DNA of 64,000 bases, from the NCBI RefSeq assembly GCF_030378165.1, contig NZ_CP119766.1, positions 5,704,001-5,768,000 on the forward strand, written 5' to 3'. Within the stretch, counting starts at the first letter, position 1; every line of letters begins with the position of its first letter. This DNA comes from Flavobacterium panacagri. Its GTDB lineage: Bacteria; Bacteroidota; Bacteroidia; Flavobacteriales; Flavobacteriaceae. The notes beneath the pieces were generated by a model that did not search any database, had not been told where the DNA came from, and saw nothing but the letters and a program-made list of their open reading frames with translations. Position numbers and translations under genes: made by a program. Of this stretch, positions 24,801 through 38,307 are shown in pieces.

Positions 24801-25787
24801 TTATTTTCTTACATATTTATTGATAATATAGGAAGTTACCGGCCTTAATGCTTTTCCATTTTCGGGATGCATCCCATGTGTATTGAAAAACTCTACACTG
24901 TCCCCTACTTTAGCATACCAAACAATGGCTTTTTCATTCTTAAAAAATTCTGTTGTATCGCAAACCTTAATTCTTCGAAGATTTATAATTCTTTCATCAT
25001 AAGATTGTGGTGAGTTAAATGTTCCAATTCCTTCTATTTTTAAATCACAGCTTATCTCTTCATAATGATCGCCAGACCATTGCATGCATTCTTTTTTGGA
25101 CAAATTAAAATAAATGATTAATCCTAATCCGAAAATAATTACAGCTATAATTCCTACAGATCTCCAATTACCAGGATTTGTTCCTCCATCTATGGGAGTA
25201 AAAGCAGCTACAGAAATTGATGTTGGCTGTGATTCTTCATCTTGAATCGGTTCCGAGTCTTGATTTGGAATTTCTTCGGAATCTTCCTTATCGAAAGTTT
25301 CTTTTGGCTCAATCGCATTTTCAGTTTCTACCTCATCAATTAAATCATCAGAAGAAACTATCTTACTTGAAAAATTAGTATCTCTTAGATCATTTATTAA
25401 GACTTCCTCATCTTTCTCATGCTGTTTTATAAACTCTCTAAAAGGTCTTGGCCGAAGATCTACTAATATTGCCGCTAATTGAATCGTATCTTCAGCAGGT
25501 TTTTCTGTTTTACCCAAAAGAAACCGCTTAACAGCTTCTAATTTATTCAGCTCGTCATCTCCAAACAAGTTTTTTTTATCCTTATCAAATGGAAAATCGA
25601 AAAAAGATTCAAAGGCACTTAAATCTTCTTTATTATTGTTTGACTGGAATCTTTTAATACATAATTTTTTAAGCTTTGCCGGTGTTGGGGAACTTAAATT
25701 ATTTGAATACTCTCCATTTATTTCTTCTTCATATTTAGCTTTAATAGCTTTTTTATAATCTTCAATAGTATAGTTTGACATAGGCAT
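24801..25787 (-). CDS. Cassette copy 1: divergent single-pass membrane protein
   Basis: I do not recognise the family. The 328-residue protein has a ~120-residue N-terminal domain (EDYKKAIKAKYEEE, PAKLKKLCIKRF, LAAILVDLRPRPFREF), an acidic linker about 125-195, one membrane segment about 208-230 (GIIAVIIFGLGLIIYF), and a C-terminal ~100-residue presumably periplasmic domain with Cys and WSGDHYEE. A paralogue at 33599-34225 shares the N-domain. The layout recalls signalling proteins with cytoplasmic and periplasmic halves. A second ATG at 25781 aligns better with the paralogue. It is divergent from the lipoprotein-kinase operon. Confidence 0.75.
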   Translation of the reverse strand: MPMSNYTIEDYKKAIKAKYEEEINGEYSNNLSSPTPAKLKKLCIKRFQSNNNKEDLSAFESFFDFPFDKDKKNLFGDDELNKLEAVKRFLLGKTEKPAEDTIQLAAILVDLRPRPFREFIKQHEKDEEVLINDLRDTNFSSKIVSSDDLIDEVETENAIEPKETFDKEDSEEIPNQDSEPIQDEESQPTSISVAAFTPIDGGTNPGNWRSVGIIAVIIFGLGLIIYFNLSKKECMQWSGDHYEEISCDLKIEGIGTFNSPQSYDERIINLRRIKVCDTTEFFKNEKAIVWYAKVGDSVEFFNTHGMHPENGKALRPVTSYIINKYVRK

Positions 25788-25792
25788 TTTGA

Positions 25793-25892
25793 ACTTTTTA
25801 AAACTTTTCTAAAGTACTTTATTCTACTTTTTACGACTTTCTAGAACTTATTCAAACTTTAGAGAAATACATTAAACTTTCCTGACTTTCTA
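25793..25892. promoter_or_regulatory. Cassette copy 1: helically phased ACTTT array
   Basis: The word ACTT(T) starts at 25793, 25803, 25816, 25826, 25836, 25846, 25856, 25876 and 25885, mostly 10 bp apart with one degenerate step at 25866. Such spacing puts every copy on the same DNA face, as expected for cooperative binding of a regulator or for a bent region. It lies between two divergent genes, about 30 bp before a TTTGC promoter-like box. The copy 2 cassette has an equivalent array with a different word. Confidence 0.6.
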
Positions 25893-25920
25893 ATCAATGC
25901 AGGCTCAAAACCGTTGTTAC

Positions 25921-26070
25921 TTTGCTCCAACAAAATTAGTTATCGTTTTGATCTGCAGGTCAAAAACAAATGTACAAAACTAGTTAAGTAACCAAGTGCG
26001 GAAAACCGTAAAACGGAGTTTATCCGGGAAGTATAAATAAAATTTTATAGTTCTACGCACTTCACTTCCC
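25921..26070 (+). ncRNA. Cassette copy 1: conserved leader with predicted pseudoknot
   Basis: Conserved with 34552-34697. Predicted helices are P1 AAGTGC (25994-25999) with GCACTT (26057-26062), P2 AAC.GTAAAA (26004-26013) with TTTTAT.GTT (26043-26052), P3 CGGA with TCCG (26014-26026), and a crossing helix GGAAGT (26027-26032) with ACTTCC (26064-26069), giving a pseudoknot. An upstream hairpin TTTTGATC-TGCA-GGTCAAAA sits at 25946-25965. P1, P2 and P3 carry compensatory changes in copy 2. It could be a cis-regulatory leader of the lipoprotein-kinase operon or a separate small RNA. No known riboswitch class is recognised. Confidence 0.6.
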
Positions 26071-26078
26071 AAACAAGT

Positions 26079-26125
26079 GGGCAATGCCATAACAAAGTTC
26101 AGAACCTTTCTGAACGGCAAAGCCC
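26079..26125 (+). other. Cassette copy 1: tiered hairpin before lipoprotein gene
   Basis: GGGC and GCCC enclose an AA/AA internal loop, then TGCC with GGCA, then a hairpin GTTCAG with CTGAAC. It ends 28 nt before the lipoprotein ATG. Copy 2 has a hairpin at the same distance (GGTGT/ACACC with TCTGG/CCGGA inside). Confidence 0.5.
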
Positions 26126-26153: not shown

Positions 26154-26339
26154 ATGAAAACAGTATTTATATTGGGAGCGTGCGCGCTATTGAGTTTGAC
26201 TATTTTTTCTTGTACTGCTGACGAATTTGAAACAGCTACAGATAAAACTGAAATAAAAAAAGATCTTAATCAGTTAAAAGCCGATGGGCCAGACGATGAT
26301 CCAATTGTGGTTCCAAAACCACCTATCAAAAATCCATAA
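26154..26339 (+). CDS. Cassette copy 1: ~60-residue lipoprotein
   Basis: Small exported lipoprotein of 61 residues. The signal peptide ends in the lipobox TIFSC, and Cys20 would be lipidated. The 42-residue mature part is acidic at first (TADEFETATD), then KKDLNQLKADGPDDD, ending in a Pro/Lys tail VVPKPPIKNP. Copy 2 encodes the same plan. It lies directly upstream of a TPR sensor kinase whose sensing domain should also be outside the cytoplasm, so it may be a ligand, a signal precursor or a regulator of that kinase. This role is inference only. Confidence 0.75.
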   Translation: MKTVFILGACALLSLTIFSCTADEFETATDKTEIKKDLNQLKADGPDDDPIVVPKPPIKNP

Positions 26340-26378: not shown

Positions 26379-26417
26379 CGGGGAAAGTAACGCTTATGCT
26401 ACGATCCCCGTTTTTTT
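26379..26417 (+). promoter_or_regulatory. Cassette copy 1: hairpin plus T-run over kinase start
   Basis: CGGGGA (26379-26384) pairs with TCCCCG (26405-26410), followed by seven T. The kinase ATG at 26396-26398 lies in the loop and the T-run is inside codons 6-8. It looks like an intrinsic terminator or start-codon-masking hairpin that would lower kinase output relative to the lipoprotein. Copy 2 has the same arrangement. Confidence 0.65.
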
Positions 26418-28084
26418 GTTTGCTATTTTTTTTATTACTGTTTTCTTGTACAGAAAAAGCACCATTATCTGTTGATACAAAAAAAGCAACAAAAGAAGCT
26501 ATTGCCTTCAGAGAAAAGGCAGAATCAAGCTTTCAAAATAAAAACTACAATACCTCTTTTTACAATTTCAACAAATCTAAAATAGCTTTTGAAATTGCAA
26601 AAGATAGTGCTAATGTTGTCTATAATTTGATCCAAATGGCTTCTATCCAGCAGATAAATGGTGATTATTATGGCAGTAAAGAAACACTAACAGAAGCATT
26701 GCCTTATATTAAAAAGAAAGATATTTACAGTGCTGCCATTAATAATTATTTTGGAATCGCCGATAAAGAACTTTCGCTTTATAATGATGCCTTTTTTTAT
26801 TATAATGAAGCTCTAAAGGATTCAAATGACGAAACATCAAAAATATCCCCACTGAATAATATTGCCGTTATTTATACTCATCAAAAAAAATATAACGAAG
26901 CCATACAAATTCTAGAATCTATTTTGTCTAAAAACGAAATTTCGGAGAAAAGCAAAGCCCGCGCATTAGACAATCTTGGATTTGCCTATTTCAAAAAAGG
27001 ATTAGATAAAAAAGGTCTTCCGTTTTTAAATGGAGGTTTACAATTAAGAACACAAGCGAATGATTCTTATGCATGTATTGGAAGTTATTTGCACTTAGCT
27101 GAATTCTTCTCTAAAACCAATACAAACGAATCAAATAAATATGCCAGAAAAGCTTATGAAATAGCAACAAATTTCAATAGTGTTGATGAACGTTTGAAAG
27201 CATTATCTTTTCTAATTGCCAATGGTTCGGGAACAAAATATGCGCAAAAATATATTTCCATTAATGACAGTATTATTAGTGTTCGAAATAATTTTAAAAA
27301 CAAGTTTGCCAAAATCAAATACGATTCTAAGAAAGAAAAAGACGAAAATCAGAAACTTCGCTTAGAAAAAGCCGAAAATGAATTAGCACTTCAGAAAGCA
27401 TTTTATCAAAAAATATTTTTCATAATTGGTATAATAGGTCTTTTTATAGTTCTTATAAATTTGAAAAGACGTTATGAAAACCGAAATCGAATAGAGAAAA
27501 TCAAAACAGCCTACGATACTGAAACAAGAATTGCGAAAGATATTCATGACGAATTAGCAAATGATGTCTTTAACACAATCACTTTTACTCAGACTCAAGC
27601 GCTTACATCTCAAGATAACAAAGAAACATTATTACAAAAACTAGATTATATTTATTCTAGAGTTCGTGGCATTTCAAGAGAAAATAATGACATCGATACG
27701 GGCGTAAATTATTCCAATAATCTAAAAGAAATGCTTTCTACCTATAATAGCGAAAAAACAAATGTTCTAATTAACAGCATTGAAAAAGTAAACTGGGATC
27801 TAATTGAAGATTTGAAAAAAATTACGCTTCAAAGGGTTTTGCAGGAATTGATGGTTAATATGAAAAAACATAGTGAAGCTTCTGTAGTTGTTTTAAAGTT
27901 CGAAACAGACACTAATAAAATATTTATACACTACAGCGACAACGGAAAAGGCTGTGAAAAATCAAAAATTATAAAAAATGGTTTACAAAATATGGAAAAC
28001 CGTATTCTAGCCATAAAAGGAACTATTACTTTTGAAACTGAACCCAATAAAGGTTTTAAAGTCAAAATAACAATGCCTAAATAA
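26396..28084 (+). CDS. Cassette copy 1: TPR sensor histidine kinase with lipobox
   Basis: 562 residues. The N-terminus is a lipoprotein-type signal with lipobox LLFSC, and TPR-like helices (YNTSFYNFNKSKIAFEIAKD, YNDAFFYYNEALKD, YNEAIQILESIL) fill about 35-270. A coiled coil leads to a membrane segment about 340-357. The cytoplasmic part is of the HisKA_3/NarX type: His384 in AKDIHDELAND, then an N-box-like LQELMVNMKKHSEA, SDNGKGCE, and a shortened ATP lid. The sensing half should be periplasmic. It is followed 6 bp later by a response regulator. Confidence 0.87.
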   Translation: MLRSPFFCLLFFLLLFSCTEKAPLSVDTKKATKEAIAFREKAESSFQNKNYNTSFYNFNKSKIAFEIAKDSANVVYNLIQMASIQQINGDYYGSKETLTEALPYIKKKDIYSAAINNYFGIADKELSLYNDAFFYYNEALKDSNDETSKISPLNNIAVIYTHQKKYNEAIQILESILSKNEISEKSKARALDNLGFAYFKKGLDKKGLPFLNGGLQLRTQANDSYACIGSYLHLAEFFSKTNTNESNKYARKAYEIATNFNSVDERLKALSFLIANGSGTKYAQKYISINDSIISVRNNFKNKFAKIKYDSKKEKDENQKLRLEKAENELALQKAFYQKIFFIIGIIGLFIVLINLKRRYENRNRIEKIKTAYDTETRIAKDIHDELANDVFNTITFTQTQALTSQDNKETLLQKLDYIYSRVRGISRENNDIDTGVNYSNNLKEMLSTYNSEKTNVLINSIEKVNWDLIEDLKKITLQRVLQELMVNMKKHSEASVVVLKFETDTNKIFIHYSDNGKGCEKSKIIKNGLQNMENRILAIKGTITFETEPNKGFKVKITMPK

Positions 28085-28090
28085 AAGCCT

Positions 28091-28759
28091 ATGTTTAAAA
28101 AAGTAATAATAGCTGAGGATTTTGAAGAATTCAATTTAGCTGTAAAACAAACTTTAAATGATCTTAACATTGACAATTTTCAGCACGCAAAATATTGTGA
28201 TGATGCTTTTCTAAAAATAAGAAAAGCTATTCAGGATAATGAGCCATACGATTTATTAATTAGTGATCTTTCTTTTAAAAAAGATCATCGTGAAGTAAAA
28301 ATTGGCAGTGGCGATGAGTTAATTCAAAAAGTCCGTGAACTGCAACCCGACATTAAAATTATTGCCTACTCTATCGAAGATAAAAATGCTCGTATAAAAT
28401 CACTTTTTGAGGATTCTGAAATCGATGCTTTTGTACTAAAAGGCAGAAATAGTATTGAAGAGCTCAAAAAGGCACTTACTATAATTTCAGCTTCTGATCA
28501 AAAATTTATTTCACCAGAAGTTGCTTCCGCTCTTCAAGAAAAAGGCAATTATGAAATTGACGATGTCGATATTAAAATCCTGAAATATTTAGCTGCTGGA
28601 ACTTCACAGGATGAAATTATTGAGATTTTTAAAAGCTCAGATGTTAAGCCAAATAGCAAAAGTGCCATGGAGAAAAGATTATCTAAACTCAAAGACTTTT
28701 TTAAAGCTAATAATACTGTTCATTTGGTTTCTATTGTAAAAGATATGGGAATTATTTAA
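28091..28759 (+). CDS. Cassette copy 1: response regulator with LuxR-like output
   Basis: 222 residues. The receiver domain has E9-D10, phosphoacceptor Asp59 in LLISDLSF, and a Lys in FVLKGR. The C-terminal ~65 residues (DIKILKYLAAGTSQDEIIEIF, SAMEKRLSKLKDFF) fit a LuxR/NarL-type helix-turn-helix with a divergent sequence. It lies 6 bp after the TPR kinase, its probable partner. The phased ACTTT array upstream of the operon is a candidate target. No equivalent gene follows the copy 2 kinase. Confidence 0.87.
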   Translation: MFKKVIIAEDFEEFNLAVKQTLNDLNIDNFQHAKYCDDAFLKIRKAIQDNEPYDLLISDLSFKKDHREVKIGSGDELIQKVRELQPDIKIIAYSIEDKNARIKSLFEDSEIDAFVLKGRNSIEELKKALTIISASDQKFISPEVASALQEKGNYEIDDVDIKILKYLAAGTSQDEIIEIFKSSDVKPNSKSAMEKRLSKLKDFFKANNTVHLVSIVKDMGII

Positions 28760-28779: not shown

Positions 28780-28803
28780 AAAGCTCCTTCGGGGGCTTTT
28801 TTA
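28780..28803 (+). terminator. Intrinsic terminator after response regulator
   Basis: AAAGCTCC, a TTCG tetraloop, and GGGGCTTT, followed by T-rich sequence, 20 bp beyond the stop. Confidence 0.85.
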
Positions 28804-34474: not shown

Positions 34475-34518
34475 GGGAATTCTAGGGAATCTCGGGAAAA
34501 CGCGGGAATTCTGGGAAT
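34475..34518. promoter_or_regulatory. Cassette copy 2: helically phased GGGAA array
   Basis: GGGAA starts at 34475, 34485, 34494, 34504 and 34513, spaced 10, 9, 10 and 9 bp. It occupies the same place as the ACTTT array of copy 1, about 30 bp before a TTTGC box. The word differs, so a different regulator or specificity is implied. Confidence 0.55.
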
Positions 34519-34551
34519 TCCTTATCTACAAAGGCTTCAAAGTGCCTTTCC

Positions 34552-34697
34552 TTTGCATCAGAAATTAGTTCAAGTTTTGTCTGCAGACTAAAACAAAAAT
34601 AAAAAACTAGTTCTAATTAACCTTGTGGAAAACCGTAAGACCGAGTTTATTCGGGAAGTATAAATTACGTCTTACAGTTCTACACAGTTACTTCCCC
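34552..34697 (+). ncRNA. Cassette copy 2: conserved leader with predicted pseudoknot
   Basis: Second copy of the structured leader at 25921-26070. Helices are P1 AAC(CT)TGT (34619-34626) with ACAGTT (34684-34689), P2 AAC.GTAAGAC (34631-34641) with GTCTTAC.GTT (34669-34679), P3 CGA with TCG (34642-34653), and the crossing GGAAGT (34654-34659) with ACTTCC (34690-34695). Unpaired stretches GGAAAACCGTAA, GAGTTTAT, AAGTATAAAT and TTCTAC are almost identical to copy 1. An upstream hairpin sits at 34574-34594. It precedes the lipoprotein gene by about 80 nt. Confidence 0.6.
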
Positions 34698-34779: not shown

Positions 34780-34962
34780 ATGAAAAAACTAATACTATTG
34801 TTCGCTTTTGCAACATTATTTACTATATTTTCTTGTACTCCTGATGAGTATGAGACTCAGCCAACTAAAAAAATCGAAAAGAATGTCGATAAGTTACGCG
34901 CTGACGGTGACGATGGTCCTGGTGATAAAACACCGCCACCAATCAAACCACCTACTGAATAA
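34780..34962 (+). CDS. Cassette copy 2: ~60-residue lipoprotein
   Basis: 60-residue paralogue of the protein at 26154. Signal peptide with lipobox TIFSC, then mature TPDEYETQPTKKIEKNVDKL, RADGDDGPGDK and a proline-rich tail PPPIKPPTE. The shared features with copy 1 are the SCT.DE(F/Y)ET start, a lysine-rich middle, (R/K)ADG with acidic residues, and the Pro tail. Function is unknown. Position before a paralogous kinase supports a linked role. Confidence 0.75.
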   Translation: MKKLILLFAFATLFTIFSCTPDEYETQPTKKIEKNVDKLRADGDDGPGDKTPPPIKPPTE

Positions 34963-34995: not shown

Positions 34996-35035
34996 CGGGG
35001 AAAGTAAATTTATATGTTACGGTCCCCGTTTTTTT
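34996..35035 (+). promoter_or_regulatory. Cassette copy 2: hairpin plus T-run over kinase start
   Basis: CGGGGA (34996-35001) pairs with TCCCCG (35023-35028), followed by seven T. An inner GTAA with TTAC adds to the stem. The kinase ATG at 35014-35016 is in the loop. It is equivalent to the element at 26379-26417, and the coded residues MLRSPFF are identical. Confidence 0.65.
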
Positions 35036-36750
35036 ATTTAACAATACTCTTTTTTCTCGTGTCCTGTGAAGAAAAAAAAACCGTTGATCCTACTACCAAA
35101 GTAATACGTAAGGAAGCAATTAGTTTAAGAGAAAAAGCAGATGAAAATTTTCAAAAGCAAAACTTAAATACCGCTTTTTATGAGTTTAATAAATCAAAAG
35201 CAATTTTTGAAAGTTTAAAAGATAGCGCCAATATTGGATATATTCTTATTCAGATGGCATCTATTCAACAAATTAACGGAGATTACTATGGCAGTAAAGA
35301 GACTGTGACCGAAGCATTACCTTATGTTGAAAAAAATAGAAATTATAAAGCATCCATCAATAATTTATTAGGTATTGCAGACAAAGAGCTTTCTCTTTAT
35401 GATGATGCCATTTTTTTCTACAAAGAAGCTTTAAAAGACTACACAGACACTATCCAAAAACAAGCACCAGTACAAAACATTGCTGCTGTTTACATCCAAC
35501 AAAAAAAATATGATCAGGCTATTCCTTTATTAGAATCTCTTTTAGAATCAATTTCAAGCAAAGAATTAAGGGATAAAACTAAACCAAATGATAAATCCAT
35601 AATTCTTGATAACTTAGGTTATGCTTATTTTAAAAAAGGATTGGAAGAAAAAGGATTTCATCTAATGGCTGAGGGACTTCAAATCAGAATTGAAAGTGAT
35701 GACACTTATGGAAGTATCGAAAGTTATCTTCACCTTGCTGATTATTATTCTAAAAAAGATTTACAGAAATCAGATGAAAATGCTCTTGCCGCTTACGCTA
35801 TAGCCACAAAACTAAATAGTGTTGACGAAAGGTTAGAAGCACTGCAAATTTTAATTTCAAACAATCACAGCGCGAATACCGCCAAATATACTCAAAAGTA
35901 TTTTACACTAAATGACAGCATCATAAAGACCAGAAACAACTTTAAAAATAAGTTTGCCAAAATCAAATACGATTCTAAAAAAGAAAAAGACGAAAACGAA
36001 AAACTTCGTTTAGAAAAAGCAGAAAATGAACTGTCGCTGCAAAAAGCCAGTTATATGCGTATTGTATTTGTGATTGTTTTTGTTTTCTTAGTCATTTTAA
36101 TTGCGATACTGATCCGTTATTATAAAAATAAAAACAAATCTATAGAACTAAAGACTTCTTATGATACTGAAACCAGAATTGCAAAAAAAATCCACGACGA
36201 ATTGGCAAACGATGTCTTTCAAGTAATTGCTTTTGCCGAATCCCAGTCTTTAAATACCGCAAACACCAAAGAAAACCTGCTTCAAAAATTGGATGATATT
36301 TATGGCCGCGTGAGAGGAATTTCAAGAGAAAATAATAGTATCGATACGGGAACCAATTTTACCCGAAGCATCAAAGAAATGCTTGCTGCTTATAATACAC
36401 AGGAGAGAAACATCATTGTGACCAATCTAGAAGAAATAAACTGGGAGACTATTGATGATATGAAAAAGATCACCATCAGCCGAATTTTACAGGAATTGAT
36501 GGTAAATATGAAAAAACACAGCAAAGCAAATCTTGTAGTCATAAAATTCGAAAGCGACCTAAAATCAATCCTAATCAATTATATGGACAATGGTGTAGGC
36601 TGTGAGAAAAGCACTATTGTAAAAAATGGTCTGCAAAACATGGTCAATCGTATTCTGGCTGTTAACGGAACTATTGATATTGATACAGAACCTGAAAAAG
36701 GATTTAGAGTGAAAATAATTATGCCGGAACAAACACAGATTAAAGTTTAA
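35014..36750 (+). CDS. Cassette copy 2: TPR sensor histidine kinase with lipobox
   Basis: 578-residue paralogue of the kinase at 26396. Signal with lipobox LVSC, TPR-like helices over about 35-285, a coiled coil (FAKIKYDSKKEKDENEKLR, near-identical in copy 1), a membrane segment about 347-368, then His394 in AKKIHDELAND, LQELMVNMKKHSKA, MDNGVGCE and a short ATP lid. No response regulator follows. The next gene is on the opposite strand, so its partner is elsewhere or shared. Confidence 0.87.
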   Translation: MLRSPFFYLTILFFLVSCEEKKTVDPTTKVIRKEAISLREKADENFQKQNLNTAFYEFNKSKAIFESLKDSANIGYILIQMASIQQINGDYYGSKETVTEALPYVEKNRNYKASINNLLGIADKELSLYDDAIFFYKEALKDYTDTIQKQAPVQNIAAVYIQQKKYDQAIPLLESLLESISSKELRDKTKPNDKSIILDNLGYAYFKKGLEEKGFHLMAEGLQIRIESDDTYGSIESYLHLADYYSKKDLQKSDENALAAYAIATKLNSVDERLEALQILISNNHSANTAKYTQKYFTLNDSIIKTRNNFKNKFAKIKYDSKKEKDENEKLRLEKAENELSLQKASYMRIVFVIVFVFLVILIAILIRYYKNKNKSIELKTSYDTETRIAKKIHDELANDVFQVIAFAESQSLNTANTKENLLQKLDDIYGRVRGISRENNSIDTGTNFTRSIKEMLAAYNTQERNIIVTNLEEINWETIDDMKKITISRILQELMVNMKKHSKANLVVIKFESDLKSILINYMDNGVGCEKSTIVKNGLQNMVNRILAVNGTIDIDTEPEKGFRVKIIMPEQTQIKV

Positions 36751-38211: not shown

Positions 38212-38307
38212 GGAGCTATTTCCAGCCATCCGCTATATCTTTTCCTGCCTAAAGAAGGCAGAAAAAGGATACCGCTTCTGTCTGGGCTAGGGCACTCGGT
38301 TTCATAA
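38212..38307. repeat. Intergenic repeat (GAGCTATTTCC...GGGCTAGGGCACTCG)
   Basis: Non-coding stretch beginning GGAGCTATTTCCAGCCATCC and ending GGGCTAGGGCACTCGG, with an internal CTGCCT/AGGCAG hairpin. It has the look of a dispersed Flavobacterium intergenic repeat. There is only one copy in this window. Confidence 0.5.

Follow-up and report, generated by a model that had tools for sequence, protein, structure and literature searches.

The DNA analysed here (the window) is a stretch of 64,000 nucleotides within the 5.98-Mb genome of Flavobacterium panacagri. Two copies of a structured element were located at the places given in a preliminary description of this DNA, copy 1 at 25920-26070 and the core of copy 2 at 34551-34696. 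Copy 1 lies between a divergent gene and genes for a small lipoprotein, a TPR histidine kinase and a response regulator, all four being present at this locus. Copy 2 precedes a second pair of lipoprotein and kinase genes; here the divergent gene is shorter and lacks the conserved C-terminal domain, and no regulator gene is present. The coordinates of the genes, helices and flanking features are given in Table 1.

Table 1. Features of the two element loci in window coordinates.
Feature	Position	Strand	Basis or remark
Divergent gene	24801..25787	-	single-pass membrane protein by inspection; conserved C-terminal domain
ACTTT repeat array, copy 1	25793..25892	+	upstream of promoter
-7-like promoter box, copy 1	25918..25925	+	TACTTTGC, directly 5' of RNA
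Domain I, copy 1	25934..25985	+	covariation
Pa, copy 1	25934-25941/25978-25985	+	AAUUAGUU/AACUAGUU
Pb, copy 1 (inner hairpin)	25945-25951/25960-25967	+	A25962 bulged
Domain II, copy 1	25994..26070	+	covariation and folds
P1, copy 1	25994-26000/26056-26062	+	
P2, copy 1	26008-26013/26043-26048	+	folds; columns poorly aligned across subgroups
P3, copy 1	26018-26023/26033-26038	+	conserved form GUUUAU/AUAAAU, around pseudoknot strand
Pseudoknot, copy 1	26026-26032/26064-26070	+	
Domain III, copy 1	26079..26125	+	z -4.40; folding basis
P4, copy 1	26079-26082/26122-26125 and 26085-26088/26116-26119	+	predicted fold
P5 hairpin, copy 1	26097-26104/26108-26115	+	predicted fold
Small lipoprotein gene, copy 1	26154..26339	+	61 aa, MKTVFILGACALLSLTIFSC...; lipobox by inspection
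Terminator-like hairpin, copy 1	26379..26417	+	CGGGGA/TCCCCG + T7; encloses kinase start 26396; z -2.3
TPR histidine kinase 1	26396..28084	+	lipoprotein-type signal peptide by inspection
Response regulator	28091..28759	+	receiver domain; C-terminal HTH by inspection
Terminator-like hairpin 3' of regulator gene	28780..28799	+	simple scan: 2 terminator-like sites vs 1.6 expected in shuffles
GGGAAT-type repeats, copy 2	34475..34521	+	starts 34475, 34485, 34494, 34504, 34513
RNA copy 2	34551..34696	+	
Pa, copy 2	34563-34570/34605-34612	+	
P1, copy 2	34624-34627/34683-34686	+	
P2, copy 2	34635-34641/34669-34675	+	
P3, copy 2	34645-34650/34660-34665	+	
Pseudoknot, copy 2	34653-34659/34690-34696	+	
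Small lipoprotein gene, copy 2	34780..34962	+	60 aa
Terminator-like hairpin, copy 2	34996..35035	+	CGGGGA/UCCCCG type + T7; encloses start codon 35014 of kinase 2; z -1.8
TPR histidine kinase 2	35014..36750	+	60% identity with kinase 1; not followed by a response regulator

The candidate promoter box of copy 1 resembles the flavobacterial -7 boxes TAnnTTTG and TAnnTTGY that appear in the excerpted text of PMC9723704. A TTTG box (once TTTA) stands directly 5' of the element in 119 of the 121 rows of the collected homologues, which represent 119 distinct loci with L069 and L070 occurring twice. Upstream of the box in copy 1 the ACTTT repeats start at 25793, 25803, 25816, 25826, 25836, 25846 (ACTTA), 25856, 25876 and 25885, mostly 10 bases apart, and are likely to form a putative regulator-binding array. 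The type of repeat differs between loci, being GGAAT in many of them and ACTTT in copy 1. When GGAA spacing was counted over the 121 rows, many of which are related, spacings of 9 and 10 occurred 135 and 88 times respectively, compared with 0.1 in mononucleotide shuffles. This helical phasing suggests that the upstream repeats are probably sites of a cooperative regulator. Arrays of three GGAAT repeats are rare in the F. panacagri genome, with six matches at five places, one of which is copy 2; a strict three-repeat ACTTT pattern gave no match in the same genome, the copy 1 array itself included.

The element is composed of three domains. Domain I is formed by helix Pa and the inner hairpin Pb, and contains the conserved strand CAAATGTACAAA; between the two helices runs a conserved CAAAUGUACAAA strand. 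Domain II is an irregular P1-P2-P3 stem in which the P3 loop GGGAAGU pairs with ACUUCCC, 0-4 nt 3' of P1. This crossing helix, GGGAAGT/ACTTCCC in the DNA, was present as first described in the sequences that were read and aligned, and P1 (AAGTGCG/CGCACTT in copy 1, AAC..TGTG/CACA..GTT in copy 2) and P2 (GTAAAA/TTTTAT and GTAAGAC/GTCTTAC, respectively) were also found as drawn. The third helix had been drawn as CGGA/TCCG, which is used by the lowest-energy fold of copy 1 taken alone but is not general: in a sequence-only alignment it paired in 196 of 386 cells, about half, against 466 of 545 for GUUUAU/AUAAAU, and CGGA/UCCG was therefore rejected as the general P3 and regarded as a group-specific alternative. 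The near-invariance attributed to the joining segments GGAAAACCGTAA and TTCTAC is confined to one subgroup, and a further joining segment, GAGTTTAT, includes the 5' strand of P3. The strand connecting P1 and P2 also differs by subgroup, being GGAAAACC in one and another sequence elsewhere. A possible pairing of GGAAAACC(G/T) in the leader with (C/A)GGTTTTCC elsewhere in the locus was rejected, as the two co-occur in 1 of 121 rows. The extent of 25921-26070 given in the preliminary description was too short, overlooking the 5' hairpin domain and the 3' domain; the observation was right and the find is larger than was described.

Folding of the two cores with the pseudoknot left out gave z-scores of -2.78 and -2.77. 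Domain III is predicted to fold ahead of the lipoprotein start codon, and folding alone gave similar structures of variable sequence at many other loci. P2 and domain III are predictions that draw only on folds and on their recurrence among loci. No conserved terminator or obvious sequestration of the start codon was found in the segment that separates domain III from the lipoprotein gene.

The proposed helices were examined for compensatory changes in 98 aligned homologues, where 91.5% of cells were paired compared with 82.9% in shuffles. Doubly changed cells numbered 242, against 50.1 in shuffles and 46-69 in slid controls, and none of 500 shuffles reached this value. Changes on both sides were seen in 28 of the 33 pairs tallied and GU pairs were frequent; the last pair of P1 (26000-26056) was paired in less than half of the cells. 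Since this alignment had been fitted to four helices (Pa, Pb, P1, P3), it is biased towards them; the pseudoknot was left out of the covariance models. A sequence-only alignment agreed, with paired cells amounting to 727/778 for Pa, 410/479 for Pb, 489/577 for P1 and 640/678 for the pseudoknot, in addition to the value for P3 given above.

The covariation check proposed in the preliminary description was run with a home-made phylogenetic test in place of R-scape, using a tree-based null with 60 simulations on 78 rows, after 14 of 92 matches of the second covariance model had been removed (E above 0.01, overlapping or on the wrong strand). The signal was strong: the top 10 of 9730 column pairs all fell within the proposed helices and none was equalled in the null. 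Single pseudoknot pairs gave E-values of 1.8 and 2.8 because these pairs vary little. On the tree the two pseudoknot strands changed 20 and 21 times, and in 15 cases over the 154 branches both strands changed on one and the same branch, where about 0.7 would be expected by arithmetic from per-pair counts. In the 28 rows from outside the genus AU replaces GC in 3, 8 and 6 rows at three pseudoknot pairs, with zero unpaired cells there. With 58 closer sequences no pair had reached significance in a first test (lowest E 0.53), and the signal became clear only after more divergent homologues were added. Taken at the level of compared sequences, covariation shows Pa, Pb, P1, P3 and the pseudoknot, and the latter is of the H-type, since a strand from the hairpin loop pairs beyond that hairpin and the pairing shows compensatory changes.

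Of 199 genus genomes covered by a blastn-type search, 70 carry the element. Before the early alignments L072 (a false blastn extension), L003 (coinciding in position with L001) and the additional matches of L048 and L057 were removed; exclusion of L043 by a start-motif rule and of four near-identical sequences then gave 64, of which 57 together with the window copy were used for the first covariance model, R1 (58 sequences). At E ≤0.001 R1 matched 183 of 398 genus genomes and 10 of 397 genomes of a family sample. The second model, R2 (98 sequences), matched 44 of the 397 family-sample genomes at E ≤0.01, 41 of them outside the genus, and these matches cover 39 of 237 genera, the genus itself included. 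In a phylum sample of 148 genomes R2 matched 10, comprising seven from the genus, two from the family and one from another family of the order, and gave no match in the remainder. These genome counts are lower bounds because of the strict filters applied in searches over 40 genomes. Among named genomes a DNA-pattern scan gave at least 80 loci, and those listed are labelled Flavobacterium, unclassified Flavobacteriaceae or [Flexibacter] sp.; among the matches listed, one sequenced strain of F. johnsoniae carries the element (L153). A divergent form of the RNA was recognised by eye in 5 of 20 stretches read, four of them from model-negative genomes (L341, L344, L348, L350). A search for copies of the element in phages gave no match.

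A small secreted-type ORF lies 3' of the element in 120 of the 121 rows, the sole exception (L044) having a 38-aa ORF there, and a long ORF then follows in 111 of 121 rows, the 10 misses including several short flanks. These ORF counts come from a permissive rule applied without a random control, but the proteins themselves were inspected at one locus after another as well. Among the loci listed the distance from the pseudoknot to the small ORF is 66 to about 120 nt. Wherever the long ORF was tested it proved to be a TPR histidine kinase. Relatives of the kinase and then of the response regulator follow in 13 of 14 extended loci. At L301 the RNA and the small ORF are present without a kinase or regulator within 9 kb. 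Of 12 model-positive genomes tested, 11 have the regulator immediately 3' of the element and the twelfth has it on another contig, while a regulator match in 16 of 38 model-negative genomes indicates that the RNA is not at every regulator locus. Among the 20 stretches read, several of which could not be judged, three (L333, L334, L337) have neither the small ORF nor the RNA. At L347 a small lipoprotein is present but no RNA could be recognised by eye, and no clear lipobox was seen at L287. In L012 and L030 one leader is followed by two tandem small lipoprotein genes. The inspected loci, which cover 28 of the 41 outside-genus genomes matched by R2, represent one operon type. In relatives the element has a candidate promoter on its 5' side and a gene of the same type on its 3' side, as would be expected of a leader. 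Within the signal-peptide codons of the lipoprotein CGGTTTTCC is kept at the nucleotide level in several genera (L105, L263, L279-L282, L288; L341, L344, L348, L350, L352), apparently beyond the demand of the protein.

The divergent gene was found in 14 of 14 extended loci and appears by inspection to encode a membrane protein. At L289-L302 it contains the C-terminal motif CMxW..HYE.V.C..WY.K..G.HPETGK.LKPIT.YII.KY. For the proteins of the window and the relative at L300 no Pfam or PADLOC match rose above the cut-offs, and the kinase gave no match to PDB sequences at E ≤1e-5. The genes beyond the operon vary and include an HSDR_N-type protein, a TerB-like protein, and type I methylase and specificity subunits. 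A location within defence islands was considered and found to hold in part only, for the type I methylase and specificity genes of L301 and the HSDR_N-type protein of the window; other downstream genes tested gave weak or no PADLOC matches.

Comparison with Rfam 15 at gathering score gave nothing at either copy, and a permissive low-score scan of the locus returned chance-like matches only, on which ground a known family at low score was rejected. Across 19 diverse loci Rfam gave just two sub-threshold matches to miRNA families, away from the element. A published description of the element was not found in open PMC papers. The element therefore appears to be a family outside Rfam 15, a new family of structured leader, and covariation together with the Rfam scans supports the earlier proposal of a structured leader with a pseudoknot that Rfam does not cover. 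The sole Rfam match in the window is Flavo-1 RNA (RF01705), on the minus strand at 38215-38292 with 73.8 bits. Flavo-1 is likewise a computationally found RNA of Flavobacteriaceae, but has 76 positions, lies elsewhere in the window and is not matched by the element. The H-type pseudoknot riboswitches, which include preQ1, SAM-II and others, resemble the element in that a loop strand of a stem pairs with the 3' flank within a leader, whereas the element has a long P1-P2-P3 stem and additional 5' and 3' domains, occurs with one operon type in the inspected loci and has no Rfam match. The 64 structured 5' regions of F. psychrophilum reported in the excerpted text of PMC9723704 are similar as flavobacterial leaders without Rfam hits; the examples named there belong to other genes (pheA, hisG, ftsY, acsA, alaS, rimP), and it is by these named examples alone that the element is set apart. 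The homo-oligomeric RNAs ROOL, GOLLD and OLE, as presented in an excerpt of PMC12286853, may be similar in the possible self-association of a natural bacterial RNA, but they are large while the core of the element is about 145 nt and lies in a probable leader.

The start codon of the kinase is enclosed by a hairpin that fits the pattern of an intrinsic terminator, with a predicted GC-rich stem and a U-run. At a stem score of ≥12 it was found in 73 of 111 rows, each of which has five or more T in the next eight bases, compared with 1.1% of mononucleotide shuffles passing the stem criterion. The remaining 38 rows fall under the cut and include both window copies, whose z-scores are modest; outside the genus the stem is weak or absent in 10 of 26 rows. 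An earlier, cruder rule had given a stem in 61 of 74 loci. The arms vary across genera in a compensated way (UCGGGAAAUG/CAUUUCCCGA, AGAGGGAUG/CAUCCCUCU, AGAGGAAUG/CAUUCCUCU), so the N-terminus of the kinase seems to be constrained by RNA.

We consider it probable that the element represents a new family of pseudoknotted mRNA leaders acting in cis, forming the approximately 230-nt 5' UTR of a self-contained signalling operon in which a small secreted lipoprotein is followed by a TPR histidine kinase and a response regulator. Transcription would start at Pa or a few bases 5' of it, and the RNA would act on its own message, determining how stable this is and how far the small lipoprotein is translated. 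The stem, about 19-27 pairs long, leaves only 0-4 nt to the 3' strand of the pseudoknot, so that a full stem and a full pseudoknot could hardly coexist in one molecule; on this geometric argument the two would be alternative, switchable states. The RNA would probably be acted on by a protein, or by another factor, from the operon. Transcription may often end at the kinase-start hairpin, in which case the main product would be a short message of leader and lipoprotein, with the kinase at a lower level. Signal peptides and gene order suggest that the small lipoprotein may partner the TPR domain of the kinase in the periplasm.

The compact pseudoknotted core in a probable leader, in which loop residues including CAAATGTACAAA and the pseudoknot strand are strongly conserved, could alternatively be a riboswitch that binds a small molecule and controls the operon, as had been suggested from the joining segments. 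This suggestion is not supported and is unlikely, since the inspected copies precede the same kind of gene pair and not varied genes of one metabolic pathway, a single context that argues against an ordinary riboswitch; the operon has no metabolic genes, the P1-P2 strand is not conserved across subgroups (GGAAAACC in one), and no Rfam family matches. The very strong conservation of the loops would also suit a trans-acting non-coding RNA that shares the promoter of the lipoprotein gene, for example by being cut or terminated before it, and base-pairs through GGGAAGU or other loops. The stable domain III hairpin ahead of the gene is compatible with such an RNA, and Rfp18, a genus-conserved structured sRNA, is known in F. 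psychrophilum from the excerpted text of PMC9723704. A simple plus-strand scan of copy 1, however, gave no terminator-like site between the leader and the lipoprotein gene, and the distance from the pseudoknot to the small ORF among the loci listed also argues against this explanation, which we judge quite unlikely. That the conservation reflects DNA sites, either an operator or a recombination site, rather than RNA is barely credible: the phased GGAA repeats and nearby palindromes resemble protein-binding DNA, but the compensatory changes track helices separated by loops, the crossing helix among them, and include frequent GU pairs.

The palindromes bear on a further alternative, in which the RNA forms a homodimer or oligomer by swapping pseudoknot strands between two molecules that are joined by self-complementary loops. 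In domain I (TTGTACAA, TTCTAGAA, TAGCGCTA) and 3' of the pseudoknot (GGAGTACTCC, GAGACGTCTC, ACAGAGCGCTCTGT and others) the sequence of the palindromes changes while the symmetry is kept, and palindromes of ≥10 nt occur in the 45 nt 3' of the pseudoknot in 27 of 121 rows, compared with 4.2 on average and at most 8 in mononucleotide shuffles. The stem geometry is also consistent with exchange. Against this, the commonest palindrome counted in the domain I region, AACTAGTT, is part of Pa, so that this helix partly explains the excess there; by eye, copy 2 has neither palindrome and the second is missing from most of the Flavobacterium subgroup to which copy 1 belongs; and the symmetry may equally indicate a DNA site of a dimeric regulator or a short hairpin. 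Dimerisation is judged distinctly unlikely. Palindromes without a loop were seen within 45 nt after the pseudoknot, among them GGAGTACTCC, AGAGACGTCTCT and AAAGAGAGGCCTCTCTTT, at L106, L107, L109, L270, L271, L273, L275, L281, L282, L288 and other loci. A more elaborate and very doubtful proposal is a self-associating switch, in which palindromic loops and an exchanged pseudoknot would join two transcripts or compete with intramolecular folding, so that transcript dose would set the amount of lipoprotein and the kinase-start terminator the ratio of lipoprotein to kinase.

As a probable cis-acting leader, the element represents an additional pseudoknotted RNA family, strongly supported by its evolution across many flavobacterial genera and closely tied to an uncharacterised module of lipoprotein, sensor kinase and response regulator. 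Flavobacterial mRNAs as a rule carry short leaders, the median being 24 nt over 890 genes of F. psychrophilum in the excerpted text of PMC9723704, and a structured leader of about 230 nt therefore stands out. The kinase start codon within a conserved terminator-like hairpin provides a second, separate candidate regulatory device. Were the self-associating switch to prove true, the operon would be an RNA-regulated, self-measuring two-component system.
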